Assembly (NCBI GenBank): GCA_016194975.1
Contig: JACQAM010000007.1
Span: forward strand, 319,947-383,946
Length of the DNA stretch: 64,000 bases
Direction: 5' to 3'
Source: Bacteroidota bacterium
GTDB taxonomy: Bacteria > Bacteroidota > Bacteroidia > Palsa-965
In this document: positions 4,411 through 61,925 of the stretch, in pieces
Layout: each line of letters starts with the position of its first letter
How positions within the stretch are numbered: position 1 is the first letter of the stretch
Notes under the pieces: generated by a model
Told to the model about the DNA's origin: nothing
The model's input: the letters and a program-made list of their open reading frames with translations, nothing else
Database searches by the model: none
Program-made: the position numbers and the translations under genes

Positions 4411-4503
4411 GCTTGGTTGCTTGTGTTGCTTGGTTGGTTGTGTTGGTTCGTGATGAAGAATTCGCACTTTCCGCATTCCGTTCCCAAGCCATAACTCATA
4501 ACC
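4411..4503. repeat. Intergenic word-repeat cluster
   Basis: This holds GCTTGGTTGCTTGTGTTGC-type repeats (4411-4450), CCGCATTCCGTTCCCA (4471-4486) and CCATAACTCATAACC (4489-4503). The second word recurs in the 58.7-58.9 kb tandem array and the third is identical at 978-992. It is non-coding spacer before the metalloprotease gene. Confidence 0.5.
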
Positions 4504-24422: not shown

Positions 24423-24560
24423 TGGGAACGAAATGCAAAACCCGCCGCTGGCGGTGCGGAAATGCAGAGTTCGAAATTCGAAATCAGCAATTCGGCATTC
24501 GCAAGTTCGCACTCCGCATTTTCGCACTAGTTCGTATTTCGTACCCGCATATTAATTTTA
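24423..24560. repeat. Intergenic word-repeat cluster
   Basis: Low-complexity spacer made of TTCGAAATTCGAAAT, TTCGGCATTCGCAAGTTCGCA and ACTAGTTCGTATTTCGTAC words, preceded by GGGAACGAAATGC and CGGTGCGGAAATGC, which resemble the unit of the 58.7 kb tandem array. No reading frame is supported. A -7-like TAATTTTA lies just before fadN. Confidence 0.5.
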
Positions 24561-57177: not shown

Positions 57178-58179
57178 CTATTTCACAAAATAATCAGAAT
57201 CGAGTAAAGTATTTTTATCATGCTGGTAAAGTGCATAGTTGAATCCTTTCTGTAATCCGTAAGCGCCGTGTTCCCCTTTTTTATTTATGGTGAGAATTCC
57301 AACCTGGAAATCTTTATAGTTAGTATTTTTTTTCACGATGCGGTTAATTGCCTCTTCGCAGGCTTCCTGTGGAGTAGCGCCGTGACGCATCATTTCCACA
57401 GCAGTGTGTGATGCAAGTGTGCGCAAAACAGTTTCACCGAGGCCCGTGCATGTTGAAGCGCCGACTTCATTATCGAGAAATAATCCTGCGCCAATGACGG
57501 GAGAATCGCCGATGCGCCCGTGCATTTTCCACGCGAGCCCGCTCGTTGTGCACACGCCTGCAAATTTTCCATTCTTATCGAGCACGAGCAATCCAATCGT
57601 ATCGTGATTCTCAATATTGATCACCGGTTTGTAATTTTTTTCTTTGCACCAATCGTCCCACGCTTTTTTCTGAACGCCATTCAATTTGTTCGGAAGAATT
57701 TCAATTCCTTCTGATTTTGCAAAAAGTTCTGCGCCACTTCCAACAATCATTACATGGGGAGTTTTCTCCATCACTTTTCTTGCAAGTGAAATCGGATGCG
57801 CAACGCCCTGTACAAATGAAACTGATCCTGCCATTCCATCATCGCTCATGATACTTGCATCGAGCGTAACAATTCCTTCCCGATCGGGATATCCGCCGAG
57901 GCCAACGGAAGTATTGGTGGGATCTGCTTCGACAACCATCACACCGCTTTCAGCTGCATCGGTAGCAGAACCGCCGTCATTTAATTTTTTCCACGCTGCA
58001 TCATTCGCAGGCATTCCGTGTTTCCAGGTGGAGATCACAATAGGAAATCCTTCCGTTGAATTTGGATTTTTCTTTTTGCCTAATTTTTGTTTTTTATCAC
58101 TCATAGCAAATGAAGACACGCCTGTTGCAGCGAGTGCCGTGGTGAGAATTCCTGTTCTTAAAAATGACTTTCTGTTCAT
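57178..58179 (-). CDS. N4-(beta-N-acetylglucosaminyl)-L-asparaginase (glycosylasparaginase)
   Basis: 333 residues. Exported: Tat-like signal MNRKSFLRTGILTTALAATG. It is an N-terminal nucleophile hydrolase made as a precursor that cuts itself before the Thr of HDTIG (NIENHDTIGLLVLD, Thr about 197). Other family stretches: GGSATDAAESGVMVVEADPTNTSVGLGGYPDREG and HGRIGDSPVIGAGLFLDNEVGASTCTGLGE. It cleaves the GlcNAc-Asn link of N-glycans after trimming. Lies between the ROK kinase and the GH92 gene, consistent with an N-glycan use pathway. Confidence 0.92.
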   Translation of the reverse strand: MNRKSFLRTGILTTALAATGVSSFAMSDKKQKLGKKKNPNSTEGFPIVISTWKHGMPANDAAWKKLNDGGSATDAAESGVMVVEADPTNTSVGLGGYPDREGIVTLDASIMSDDGMAGSVSFVQGVAHPISLARKVMEKTPHVMIVGSGAELFAKSEGIEILPNKLNGVQKKAWDDWCKEKNYKPVINIENHDTIGLLVLDKNGKFAGVCTTSGLAWKMHGRIGDSPVIGAGLFLDNEVGASTCTGLGETVLRTLASHTAVEMMRHGATPQEACEEAINRIVKKNTNYKDFQVGILTINKKGEHGAYGLQKGFNYALYQHDKNTLLDSDYFVK

Positions 58180-58216
58180 GGAGACGGGGTGATAATTTGA
58201 CTAAAGGTACTAAGAG

Positions 58217-58249
58217 GGGACGGAATGCGGACGGTGCGGACGTGCGGAA
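58217..58249. repeat. Inverted single copy of the 38-bp array unit
   Basis: GGGACGGAATGCGGACGGTG followed by CGGACGTGCGGAA is the reverse complement, with few changes, of the unit repeated at 58735-58896. The GxxExxY gene lies between the two, so the gene is enclosed by inverted repeat material. Confidence 0.7.
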
Positions 58250-58255
58250 TACAAA

Positions 58256-58669
58256 TCAACCAGGTTTCTTCCCAACCAAGTTAGTATTTATTACCCGCTT
58301 GATCAATGCTCTGTCATTCGAGAATCGGATCATGAGTCCTAAGAGTTTATTCATTGACAACAGGTATTGATTCAATTGAGCATAATCACCAGAACTAAAA
58401 TATATTCCACGCTTTAGTTCAAGAATGATTTTGTCTTCGATCAGGAAATCAACTCGCCCGTTGCCGATCTTTTCTCCATCATAAATTACGTTACAAGTAA
58501 CTTGTTCTTGCACAATCAAACCTTTTTTCTTCAATGCATTTGATAATGCTTTCTGATAAATTTTCTCCAAATGTCCAGGACCGATTGATTTGTAAACATC
58601 ATAAACGCATCCGTTAATGACATAAGTCAAATCAGCATAAAGCAATTTTTCATTTAATATTTTTTCCAT
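58256..58669 (-). CDS. GxxExxY protein (PD-(D/E)XK nuclease fold)
   Basis: 137 residues, started at the ATG at 58669 (MEKILNEKLLYADLTYVING); the longer frame upstream only translates the tandem repeat. Family hallmark GHLEKIY (GxxExxY) follows VYDVYKSIGPG. The nuclease-fold core VDFLIEDKIILELKRG supplies the acidic residue and ExK. Biochemical role is not established; genes of this family are scattered in environmental Bacteroidota. Here it lies in the N-glycan gene group, separating GH92 from glycosylasparaginase, and is bracketed by inverted copies of a short repeat, which suggests insertion as a unit. Confidence 0.85.
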   Translation of the reverse strand: MEKILNEKLLYADLTYVINGCVYDVYKSIGPGHLEKIYQKALSNALKKKGLIVQEQVTCNVIYDGEKIGNGRVDFLIEDKIILELKRGIYFSSGDYAQLNQYLLSMNKLLGLMIRFSNDRALIKRVINTNLVGKKPG

Positions 58670-58734
58670 AAGTAATGATTTTGTGGCAAAAGTATTTTCG
58701 ACAAAACAAAATGTCAAGTCATGTTGATAAGTAC

Positions 58735-58896
58735 TTCCGCATGTCCGCACCGTCCGCATTCCGTTCCCAGATTTCCGCATGTCCGCACCGTCCGCATTCC
58801 GTTCCCAGATTTCCGCATGTCCGCACCGTCCGCATTCCGTTCCCAGATTTCCGTTCCCAGATTTCCGCATGTCCGCACTGTCCGCATTCCGTTCCC
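58735..58896. repeat. 38-bp tandem array, about four copies
   Basis: The unit starting ATGTCCGCACCGTCCGCATT and ending CCAGATTTCCGC begins at 58741, 58779, 58817 and 58869. The first two copies are identical; the third carries an extra 14-base partial duplication of GTTCCCAGATTTCC (58853-58866); the last has one C-to-T change and is cut short at GTTCCC. It lies upstream of the GxxExxY gene and 5 bases from the GH92 stop. Confidence 0.9.
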
Positions 58897-58901
58897 TCCG
58901 G

Positions 58902-61900
58902 TTATTCTATCTCAATTTCGTCTGCAAATATCCACGCCGGACTTCCTTTTCCCGGGTGCCATTGCGGGCAAGTTCCGATATTTTTTGCAACGACTTTTAT
59001 GTAGCGCGCTTTTGTTTTTTTCACCGAAAGAAATTGATTGCGTATGGTTCCATCTCTTTTCGGATCGATATTATTTGCAACGGAATCGATGATCGTGAAA
59101 TTTTTTCCATCGGAAGAAGCGTAGAATTTTATTTCGGAAGGCATGAATATCCATGCGCCCTGATCCTGCAAACATCCGAGTGAAATTCTCGAAACATCTT
59201 TTACTGAACCAAGATCGATCACTGCATCCAGATCTTTTCCTTCATAACCCTGCCATTCACCCGTGCGGAAATTATCGGAACCCATTATTCCATCGATCAG
59301 CGCGTCATCTCCTCCGCCGGTGTATTGATTTTCATATTGCGTATTTAATTTTATAGAACGGCCTCCTGGAATTTTTGTGTATTTGAAATCGACGGTGTCG
59401 CTGTGCTGACCGATTTCGTTTACGGTAAATGCTTTGATCGCGGAAGTTTCTTTGATGTCGAATTTCCATGTCGTTTCTGCAAACGCGTTTCCGTTAATGC
59501 TCTGGAATATTTTCACTCCTGGAACCTCGTAGTAGAACAGATGCATCACATCGGTAAATGTTCTTTTAATATTCGGACCAAAGAAAAGATTATTCGTTTC
59601 ATAGAAATCTGTCATCTCAATTCGTGGAGGAAGCGGAATGGCGGCCTGGTCTGAGCAAACATTCACTTCCTGCCAATTCGTTCCGATCCTGATCAAAGCA
59701 AACTTTCCTCCTTTTGCAATTTCATTGAATGCAATTTCATTTTTGTGAATTTTCTTTCCATTCAAGTCAGCAAAAAGATATCCCGCTTTGAATCCTTCAG
59801 GAAGTTTGAGTTGATCTGTATCCTTTGTCAAGTCATTGATCTCAAAATCCTTTCCTGATTCAAGATGTAAAACAACATGATCAAATCCTGGTTCTGTTAT
59901 GGAATAATCACTTGTTCCTGGACTCACATCATACATCCCCATCATACTCATCACGTACCACGCACTCATTTGCCCGCAATCTTCATTACCGCAAAGTCCG
60001 TCGGGCTTATCTGTGTATTGCTCATTACAAATTTTAGAAACGATCTTCTGCGTTTTCCATGGCTCCGAAGTGTAATCATACAAATACGCCATGTGATGAC
60101 TTGGTTCATTTCCCTGCGCGTATTGCCCGATCATTCCTGAAATATCTGCCTGGTCTCTTCCGGAAGTTGCGGATGAAGTGGAAAATAATTTATCCAAAAA
60201 CTCAATGAACTTTTTATCACCTCCATGTGCCGCGATCAATCCGGGAATGTCCTGTTGCACTGCCAATGAATATTGCCATGCATTCGCTTCGGTGTAATGG
60301 AAATTAACTTCATTCGGATCGAACGGAGAAGAAAAAGAATTGTTCAGGCGTGCGCGCATGAAACCGGTTTGCGGATCAAATAAATTTCTCCATGACATAG
60401 AACGGTGAGAAAAATATTTATAGTCTGCATCATTCTTCATTCTCTTTGCTGCAAGTGCAATGCACCAATCGTCATACGCATACTCCAAAGTTTTCGAAAC
60501 CGATTCACTTTCTCCTTCGGCAGGAATAAATCCATATTTTTTATATGCTTTCAATCCATTATCATCACTCATCGCAGAAACTTTCATCGCTTCATAAGCG
60601 AGAGCCGTATCGAAATCCGTCAATCCTTTCATCCACGCATCCACGATCACGGGAACAGAATGATAACCGATCATACAATTTGTTTCATTCGCAGAAAGTT
60701 CCCACACCGGTAATTTTCCTCCGTCCTGGAATTGTTTGAGAAAAGTGCGGATGAAATCCTGGTCGCGTTCCGGTTGAATGATTGTGAACAAGGGATGCAA
60801 TGCGCGATACGTATCCCACAATGAAAAAACAGTGTATTGCGGATGAAGTGAATCGCGGTGAACTTTTTTATCCATTCCCCAATAATCGCCATTCACATCG
60901 GAATACAAATTCGGAGAAATAAAACAATGATAGAGTGCAGTATAGAAAATTCTCTTTTTTGTATTCGAAGAATCCTTCACTTCTATTTTTCCCAATTCGG
61001 AATTCCATTGCTGCTGCACCTTTTTTCTTACCGCATCAAAATCAAAATCCGGAACTTCTGTTTCCATATTGAGTTTCGCATTTTCGCAACTCACGGGAGA
61101 CAGTGCAACTTTAACAATCACTTCTCCATGATGAACATCTTTCGTATTACAATCAAATTGAAAAACAGCCTTCAGATCTTTTGCCGAAGAAGAATCTGCT
61201 TCGAAAATTTTACCATTGCTCCATAAAGAAGATTTTTTAAACGGCACGGAAAATTTCGCGTAAAAATAAACACGCTGGTCATTTGCCCAGTTTCTCGAAA
61301 AACGATAACCACGAATGATCGAATCATTTACTATTTCGAGATGCGATCCGATAACCTCATCCCGATGCTGAAGATCCAGCAACACCCAGGAAGAATCATT
61401 TTTATAAAATTGATAACGCTGAACTCCAACCCGGGGTGAAGCAGTCAATTCAACATTTATTTTATACTGGGGAAGACTTATAAAATAATAACCAGCTTCT
61501 GCTCTTTCGTTGATATGAAAAAATTTTGTCCGATAACCTGGTTTCCCATCTGCACCATTTGTATAATTTATTTTTCCTGACCCCGGCATAAATAATATAT
61601 CTCCATAATCACTGCAACCCGTTCCACTTAAATGCGTGTGAGAAAAACCATAGATCACCGAATCATCATAATGATAACCCGAACAACCATCCCAGCTTCC
61701 ATCCACGCGCGTATCCGGGCTCAACTGCACCATCCCAAATGGCGCGCACGCACCCGGGAATGTGTGCCCATGCCCGGCAGTACCGATCATCGGATCGACA
61801 TACTTTGCAAAATCAGTTTTTACAGTATCCACTTTCCAGGGAAAACAAACGTAGCCCGGAGTTTCATTTTCACTGCAGGTGAAAAGAAAAAAAGACAGCG

Positions 61901-61925
61901 GAAGTAATAGAAGTAGTTTTTTCAT
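58902..61925 (-). CDS. GH92-family alpha-mannosidase lipoprotein with C-terminal F5/8-type domain
   Basis: 1007 residues. Lipoprotein signal (LLPLSFFLFTCSEN). GH92 core begins with YVDPMIGTAGHGHTFPGACAPFGMVQLSPDTR and continues with GCSGYHYDDSVIYGFSHTHLSGTGCSDYGDI, GRDQADISGMIGQYAQGNEPSHHMAYLY and PDGLCGNEDCGQMSAWYVMSMMGMY, all signature stretches of this calcium-dependent exo-alpha-mannosidase family. The last roughly 140 residues are an F5/8 type C (CBM32-like) sugar-binding domain (DNFRTGEWQGYEGKDLDAVIDLG). It trims mannose from high-mannose N-glycans outside the cell. Upstream partner of the glycosylasparaginase and ROK kinase. Confidence 0.95.
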   Translation of the reverse strand: MKKLLLLLPLSFFLFTCSENETPGYVCFPWKVDTVKTDFAKYVDPMIGTAGHGHTFPGACAPFGMVQLSPDTRVDGSWDGCSGYHYDDSVIYGFSHTHLSGTGCSDYGDILFMPGSGKINYTNGADGKPGYRTKFFHINERAEAGYYFISLPQYKINVELTASPRVGVQRYQFYKNDSSWVLLDLQHRDEVIGSHLEIVNDSIIRGYRFSRNWANDQRVYFYAKFSVPFKKSSLWSNGKIFEADSSSAKDLKAVFQFDCNTKDVHHGEVIVKVALSPVSCENAKLNMETEVPDFDFDAVRKKVQQQWNSELGKIEVKDSSNTKKRIFYTALYHCFISPNLYSDVNGDYWGMDKKVHRDSLHPQYTVFSLWDTYRALHPLFTIIQPERDQDFIRTFLKQFQDGGKLPVWELSANETNCMIGYHSVPVIVDAWMKGLTDFDTALAYEAMKVSAMSDDNGLKAYKKYGFIPAEGESESVSKTLEYAYDDWCIALAAKRMKNDADYKYFSHRSMSWRNLFDPQTGFMRARLNNSFSSPFDPNEVNFHYTEANAWQYSLAVQQDIPGLIAAHGGDKKFIEFLDKLFSTSSATSGRDQADISGMIGQYAQGNEPSHHMAYLYDYTSEPWKTQKIVSKICNEQYTDKPDGLCGNEDCGQMSAWYVMSMMGMYDVSPGTSDYSITEPGFDHVVLHLESGKDFEINDLTKDTDQLKLPEGFKAGYLFADLNGKKIHKNEIAFNEIAKGGKFALIRIGTNWQEVNVCSDQAAIPLPPRIEMTDFYETNNLFFGPNIKRTFTDVMHLFYYEVPGVKIFQSINGNAFAETTWKFDIKETSAIKAFTVNEIGQHSDTVDFKYTKIPGGRSIKLNTQYENQYTGGGDDALIDGIMGSDNFRTGEWQGYEGKDLDAVIDLGSVKDVSRISLGCLQDQGAWIFMPSEIKFYASSDGKNFTIIDSVANNIDPKRDGTIRNQFLSVKKTKARYIKVVAKNIGTCPQWHPGKGSPAWIFADEIEIE

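Follow-up and report, generated by a model that had tools for sequence, protein, structure and literature searches.

The GxxExxY unit of the window

In the window (the whole stretch of 64,000 nucleotides that was analysed), a gene for a GxxExxY protein lies between the genes for a GH92 protein and a glycosylasparaginase. An earlier note on this DNA had described a four-copy array upstream of this gene and one inverted copy of the repeat downstream, all within the GH92-glycosylasparaginase interval, and this arrangement is confirmed by the coordinates:

57178-58179, minus strand: glycosylasparaginase gene, neighbour of the unit
58214-58898, no strand assigned: whole GxxExxY unit, between the GH92 and glycosylasparaginase genes
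58214-58249, minus strand: 3' arm, one inverted 38-bp unit, 92-94% complementary to the 5' copies
58226-58249: words TGCGGAC/TGCGGAC/TGCGGAA of the 3' arm, read on the plus strand
58256-58669, minus strand: GxxExxY gene (coding 58259-58669, stop 58256-58258, ATG 58667-58669; 137 amino acids)
58256-58870, minus strand: mechanical open reading frame of 204 amino acids, in frame into the 5' arm
58735-58768, plus strand: 5' arm unit 1, closest to the gene, three words
58773-58806, plus strand: 5' arm unit 2, three words
58811-58844, plus strand: 5' arm unit 3, three words
58849-58896, plus strand: 5' arm unit 4, outermost, a 14-nt partial repeat followed by a copy at 58863-58896
58902-61925, minus strand: GH92 gene, neighbour of the unit

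The 38-bp unit is made up of three 7-bp words (TGCGGAC-TGCGGAC-TGCGGAA) spaced 9 and 8 nt, and the word of the window can be written TGCGGAN. There are 12 words (four units) upstream of the gene and three (one unit), inverted, downstream. These repeats are not due to chance, since the 16-mer repeat core has 32 matches (≤ 2 mismatches) in the 4.10-Mb genome and a reversed control has none. Related words had also been noted at two other places in the window. The one at 4470-4485 is genuine but solitary, while that at 24424-24468 is merely word-like, differing from the core at three positions; both lack an inverted partner. Three places in the window (44789, 44902 and 55936) carry the 14-mer AAGGGCATCTCTAA or its complement.

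The 5' word array is open in the frame of the gene (58670-58870) and would give a repetitive N-terminus if translated. The true start of the GxxExxY gene is probably not in the repeat, the extra N-terminus of the 204-residue frame being translated repeat, and an automatic gene call is likely to place the start inside the repeat.

A predicted nuclease with a Cas4-like fold

The window protein matches PF13366 (PDDEXK_3; E 1.4e-28, 100.1 bits, curated cut-off 22) and TIGR04256 (E 1.6e-28, 99.4 bits, curated cut-off 35), PDDEXK_3 being the only family returned by a Pfam scan. It carries D74, E84 and K86 of the PD-(D/E)XK site; in an alignment of 50 proteins D74 and K86 are invariant and E84 is present in at least 90%. 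The predicted structure (pLDDT 94) has as its nearest solved fold, among those compared, 4ic1 (SSO0001), which we take to be a Cas4 (Foldseek E 7e-5; VIA Z 9.8, rmsd 3.6, 101 aligned). The next fold matches are to restriction enzymes, Hjc and others, with Z < 8 that may reflect the common core only. By residues and modelled fold the window protein qualifies as a member of the PD-(D/E)XK nuclease superfamily, and a nuclease role is predicted for it.

There is no PDB sequence match to the window protein. A defence system was rejected as an explanation, the window protein having no PADLOC match, as was a phage origin, there being one relative in the scan of viral contigs and no PHROG for the window protein. 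One giant algal virus is described as carrying a GxxExxY gene (PMC12085832). No function for GxxExxY proteins and no link between them and repeats was found described in the literature searched, from which most subscription journals and all preprints lay outside.

Inverted arms enclose most GxxExxY genes

Arms were detected by aligning the 500 nt upstream of each gene to the reverse-complemented 500 nt downstream and accepting scores ≥ 15. Genes matching PF13366 are present in 40 of 59 genomes of the window's class. Among the best 95 of 123 matches there, the lowest-ranked being left out, arms were found for 71 genes, compared with 0 of 30 acetyltransferase (GNAT) controls taken from that set of genomes; of 950 mispaired flanks, 3.8% scored ≥ 15. 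A cross-phylum set was assembled from 80 named genomes and one viral contig, giving 76 loci with enough flank (five were dropped); arms were found at 48 of these (mispaired flanks 8.0% of 760). Its loci come from Bacteroidota, Ignavibacteria, Planctomycetes, Anaerolineae, Alpha- and Betaproteobacteria, Acidobacteria, Nitrospinota and one Methanosarcinales contig, among others. In a Flavobacterium set, the third used below, arms were found for 56 of 70 genes (mispaired flanks 8.5% of 410).

These counts support enclosure by its own repeats, each gene with its own word, as a general property of GxxExxY genes. The earlier note had asked whether GxxExxY genes carry the window's repeats on both sides: in all three sets most have repeats of their own on both sides, and no repeat is common to them. 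A single 38-bp repeat shared by all GxxExxY genes was rejected, as the five PF13366 matches in the window's genome are each enclosed by a different inverted repeat (judged by eye). Of the two findings that the earlier note named as speaking against its reading, one proved false, since GxxExxY genes do not mostly lack repeats; the other was made, as repeats do occur where there is no such gene, in many cases as inverted pairs. At the score used, at least a quarter of GxxExxY genes are armless, and copies per genome are few (1 to 19, mostly < 8); both points weigh against reading the unit as a mobile element.

The word is conserved between arms and inherited with the protein

Across 176 genes, the usual word has the form CRCNRAN (or YRCNRAN), about 7 bp, with a spacing peak at 8-11 nt, and TTnAC often stands before the outermost word. 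Words in the expected orientation, forward upstream of the gene and reverse downstream of it, have a density of 11.1 per kb, versus 3.9 for the opposite orientation; the values for acetyltransferase controls are 2.2 and 1.1. The signal fades more than about 200 nt from the gene.

The two arms of an element were compared for the 102 of the 176 elements with at least two words in both. Agreement between arms at word positions 2, 5 and 7 is 0.85, 0.83 and 0.88, versus 0.49, 0.52 and 0.59 between different elements (positions 3 and 6 are set by the search pattern and are uninformative). For spacers of equal length the corresponding values are 0.50 and 0.33. Since words agree more than spacers, it is the word that is conserved, together with some kinship of whole arms. 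A conserved hairpin was ruled out as the main constraint, because spacers agree less than words. A described RNA family in the arms was likewise rejected, with no match to Rfam 15 at the gathering score in six loci (18,880 bases).

On a tree of the 176 domains, word labels need fewer changes than in any of 100 shuffles. Position 2 changes 18 times (shuffled mean 30.4), position 5 changes 23 times (29.9) and position 7 only four times (19.2). Word and protein are therefore inherited as a unit.

A residue of the first helix covaries with base 5 of the word

Single residues were tested for covariation with single word bases, with traits simulated on the tree to correct for phylogeny. Base 5 (G or A) is linked to alignment column 3 with z 14.7 in 122 elements (null maximum 7.5) and z 13.5 in 159 elements (null maximum 7.2 in 1000 simulations); for columns 4, 99 and 7 the values in the 159 elements are 9.6, 7.7 and 6.0, against the same null maximum of 7.2. 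Columns 3, 4 and 7 correspond to T15, Y16 and N19 of the window protein, on helix 1 (model residues 2-29), and T15, Y16, N19 and L110 are candidate word-reading residues. With all sets pooled, elements with Thr at column 3 have 56 G and 4 A, and those without Thr have 24 G and 71 A. Neither the bases flanking the word (P = 0.08 to 0.76) nor word positions 2, 4 and 7 (P = 0.31, 0.11 and 0.06) show a significant link to a residue. Covariation of base 5 with a residue beyond what phylogeny gives implies recognition of the unit's ends by its own protein.

The base-5 rule was derived from the first 102 elements and applied to held-out genes. The first held-out set comprised 60 genes, four of them duplicates; 28 of the other 56 have words in both arms and 26 have a clear base 5. 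Here Thr goes with 11 G and 0 A, and its absence with 0 G and 15 A. A predictor using columns 3 and 4 was correct for 25 of 26, compared with 20 of 26 for the nearest protein with those columns masked. Close relatives switch residue and word jointly, one (L356) having DETYKIIG with CACAGAT and another (L354) DESYKIIG with CACGAAT.

The association is weaker in the third set, the 70 Flavobacterium genes, of which 41 have words in both arms and 37 an unambiguous base 5 (6 G and 2 A with Thr, 9 G and 20 A without; P = 0.04). Seven of nine exceptions in this set form a single clade with Arg at column 7, and elements with Arg at column 7 and no Thr have G in 10 of 10 cases. Under a Thr-or-Arg rule, which is partly post hoc, the third set divides into 13 G and 2 A versus 2 G and 20 A. 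In sterical terms, Thr may fill the place of the thymine methyl group and Arg may contact G.

In another observation on Flavobacterium, one clade (L452, L453, L457, L464, L470 and L478) has GAG and AAG words mixed according to their place in the arm, which blurs the base-5 rule there; perhaps the sites of these arrays bind differently.

The 3' arm alone follows the rule (Thr 41 G, 3 A; not Thr 16 G, 50 A), so the association is not due to an overlap of arm and gene start. A control with words in reversed orientation was also associated and is not a clean negative (22 elements per arm, some flanks having words both ways). Only four independent pairs lie on well-supported branches; this, the weakness of the simple Thr rule in the third set and the lack of a significant residue link at word positions 2, 4 and 7 weigh against the mobile-element reading. 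In held-out elements, rules linking residues to word positions 2 and 7 either failed or were no improvement on the nearest protein (10 of 25 correct, and 26 of 27 against 27 of 27 for the nearest protein).

Empty sites and gene-free units

The GH92-glycosylasparaginase pair was found in seven relatives, six of the genus and one of the family. The GxxExxY gene is absent from the interval in all seven, and the gap is 11-144 nt, compared with 725 nt in the window. The interval of 144 nt (L438) holds a gene-free inverted word unit, as judged by eye. By comparison of these sequences, the window unit is an insertion between otherwise adjacent genes.

A second interval, in Flavobacterium, has as its upstream neighbour what is presumably a hemW-like gene. 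Its 63 cases were classed by eye (L398 was excluded): 19 gene-bearing units with words of CGCAAAG type, 28 whole gene-free word units of several kinds, six clean junctions, two half units, seven with other contents and one unreadable (N). The gene-free units include one derived by deletion from the gene-bearing kind (L430), and some carry T-ending words of another class. Empty sites in relatives, which the earlier note had proposed looking for, were thus found for both intervals, among the seven relatives that lack the gene between GH92 and glycosylasparaginase and in the six clean hemW cases. The clean hemW intervals have no words, which leaves target recognition unaccounted for if the unit is mobile. 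They have only about 15-25 nt between genes and are too diverged for a target-site duplication to be called. Among the intervals compared, no target-site duplication or fixed target was established for the units and no exact excision or recent jump was seen. The last word base changes rarely on the protein tree (about four to five times), which makes two or more arrivals at the hemW interval likely.

A GxxExxY gene elsewhere was sought in 35 of the hemW-interval genomes. Four of the six genomes with clean junctions have no such gene anywhere, versus 0 of 29 with gene-free or half units. This link between gene-free units and resident GxxExxY genes may reflect shared ancestry, at least in part.

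The hemW interval also contains a palindromic GCTGAACTAGTTTCAGC-like repeat, apparently REP-like, in two Flavobacterium genomes (L403 and L411). In a further case (L372), with an interval of 1220 nt, the GxxExxY unit comes after a short stretch left over from the end of hemW, together with an additional gene (by eye), as if unit and old neighbour had arrived together by recombination.

The window's genome has 21 outside sites with the core of the window word, seven of which have an inverted partner (score ≥ 15, within 220 nt), compared with 1 of 120 control positions. Gene-free pairs at C4:65.2k, C18:43.4k and C28:10.2k span 88-136 nt; a similar pair at C25:85.9k scores 13.5, below the threshold. 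One of the seven, at C8:90.2k (L024), spans 171 nt and has long inverted arms (score 25); it resembles an ordinary MITE, apparently unrelated to the words. Long TACGAATTACGAATGC/GTGCGAAAATGCGAAG word mosaics from which the gene is absent were seen at G000:C3:18.5k and C22:173k (L001 and L010).

Proposed element and alternatives

We consider it probable that the GxxExxY unit is a compact mobile element with a single gene, which encodes a Cas4-like nuclease that recognizes the terminal word arrays and mobilizes itself. The ends of such an element would be inverted arrays of a short word (some 7 bp, in most cases CRCNRAN), with at least three words per arm roughly one helical turn apart, and its sole protein would be a small PD-(D/E)XK nuclease with a Cas4-like fold. 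The first helix of the nuclease would read the words in the arms of its unit, with G at base 5 accompanying Thr (or, in one clade, an Arg four residues further along) and A mostly accompanying Ser, Ala or Gly. Binding of both arms would bring the ends together (synapsis), and the conserved nuclease site would cut them, releasing or copying the unit. Gene-free word units with the same word may be mobilized in trans. Binding, synapsis, cutting and self-mobilization are inferred for the GxxExxY protein: word binding from the residue-base covariation, movement of the unit from the comparison of species and cutting from the conserved residues. The same fold is found in many nucleases that do not move DNA, which weighs against the mobile-element reading.

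The suggestion that the unit might be a minimal mobile or homing-like one holds in its first part, as it looks like a minimal mobile element. Homing is one option only, because the words that are apparently read sit in the element and not in the clean empty site.

If the mobile-element reading is true, the common GxxExxY proteins would be enzymes of a widespread mobile element, and such elements would be a source of many short intergenic word repeats. The residue-base covariation provides a natural series of DNA-reading variants. If the protein does not move the unit, the unit would be a variant of a self-recognizing repeat system.

One alternative, which we think unlikely, is that the protein binds the word arrays to control its own expression or for some other job (an operator array, a terminator, or an RNA or DNA hairpin handled by the nuclease), while homologous recombination or unrelated enzymes carry the unit along passively. 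The closeness of the arms to the gene (within about 200 nt) is consistent with this, as is the remnant of an old neighbour beside the L372 unit, seen by eye, as after ordinary recombination. Orthologous units stay at the same place in many Flavobacterium species, indicating that the units are not very mobile, and this too would suit passive movement. However, a promoter operator needs neither an inverted array past the stop codon nor gene-free pairs elsewhere, the nuclease site is conserved and the spacers do not pair like a conserved hairpin.

It is quite improbable, in our judgement, that the nuclease acts by homing, cutting gene-free word units or alleles into which the gene is then copied by repair with the arms as homology. 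Such a process could account for gene-free and gene-bearing word units at one interval in different species, and a GxxExxY gene is present somewhere in each of the 29 genomes searched that have a gene-free or half unit. However, clean empty sites are without words, the word class of gene-free units in the hemW interval often differs from that of the gene-bearing units (by eye), and homing enzymes normally keep no intact target in their own ends.

That the arms are ordinary intergenic repeats (REP or MITE remnants) with GxxExxY genes nearby by accident is scarcely credible and is refuted in the main, for although the word repeats are also scattered without the gene (the 32 core matches) and 14 of the 21 outside sites have no inverted partner at score 15, every gene is flanked on both sides by an inverted repeat of its own, control genes have none (0 of 30) and words covary with residues beyond phylogeny.

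Relation to known systems

By analogy, RAYT/REP systems and REPINs are the closest working model for GxxExxY units. In RAYT/REP systems the transposase gene is described as always lying between two inverted REPs, with REP doublets dispersed (Nunvar 2010, PMC2817692; Bertels and Rainey 2011, PMC3116915). In both kinds a single DNA-processing gene lies between two copies of its own repeat, inverted to each other, inverted doublets without the gene occur elsewhere and gene copies are few; the window gene, too, has an inverted repeat of a dispersed family on either side. The differences lie in enzyme and repeat: RAYT is an IS200/IS605-type tyrosine (HuH) transposase whereas the GxxExxY protein is a predicted PD-(D/E)XK nuclease, and a REP is a palindrome headed by GT(A/G)G whereas GxxExxY arms are arrays of 7-bp words with element-specific bases. 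The IS200/IS605-type Y1 domain (Transposase_17, PF01797), a criterion given in PMC2817692, is absent from the window protein in the Pfam scan, and for want of a Y1 transposase domain the window unit is not a member of the RAYT/REP family.

Insertion sequences and MITEs share with GxxExxY units terminal inverted repeats, short gene-free derivatives and empty sites. They differ in that the window protein has no DDE domain (Pfam) and in that degenerate word arrays take the place of one transposase site. As regards Cas4 and casposons, the likeness lies in the nearest solved fold, 4ic1, and in one relative (L036) that matches Cas4 models weakly. Cas4 proteins have conserved cysteines and an Fe-S cluster, whereas there is no Cys among the invariant or near-invariant columns of the family (50 proteins); the GxxExxY protein is also only 137 amino acids long and stands alone in its unit, with no Cas1.

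To our knowledge, GxxExxY units fit no recombinase chemistry so far described (DDE, Y1/HuH, tyrosine, serine, Cas1 or reverse transcriptase), if the proposed reading is true. Their enzyme, ends and code differ from those of the element classes known to us. There is about an even chance that they form a new class of DNA mobile element, present in many bacterial phyla and perhaps in archaea, whose sole enzyme is a Cas4-like PD-(D/E)XK nuclease that reads inverted arrays of a 7-bp word by a residue-to-base code and mobilizes both itself and gene-free units, and whose end architecture is used by the PF05635 four-helix-bundle family with words of its own. Searches of the literature, with subscription journals mostly and preprints wholly outside them, found no description of nuclease-bearing elements like these, of four-helix-bundle genes with repeats or of matching heptamer repeats; six word strings searched for literally gave only an unrelated match.

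TAACTGA heptamer repeats are reported from Beggiatoaceae, Cyanobacteria and Bacteroidetes (MacGregor 2015, PMC4679880). As presented there, they resemble GxxExxY arms in being intergenic arrays of a short word upstream of genes, and differ in being direct repeats of a single word, with no nuclease gene described as linked to them; neither 'four helix' nor 'nuclease' occurs as a term in the main text of that paper (PMC4679880).

The four-helix-bundle genes of 23S rRNA intervening sequences (PF05635) pose a concrete sister problem. In the same genomes these are also enclosed by inverted word arrays, arms being found for 20 of 35 at score ≥ 15 (L066-L071 and L102-L130). The protein is unrelated to GxxExxY, and the words have a period of about 8 nt (for example, GTATTGA and GTTTCAG), with no excess of CRCNRAN.
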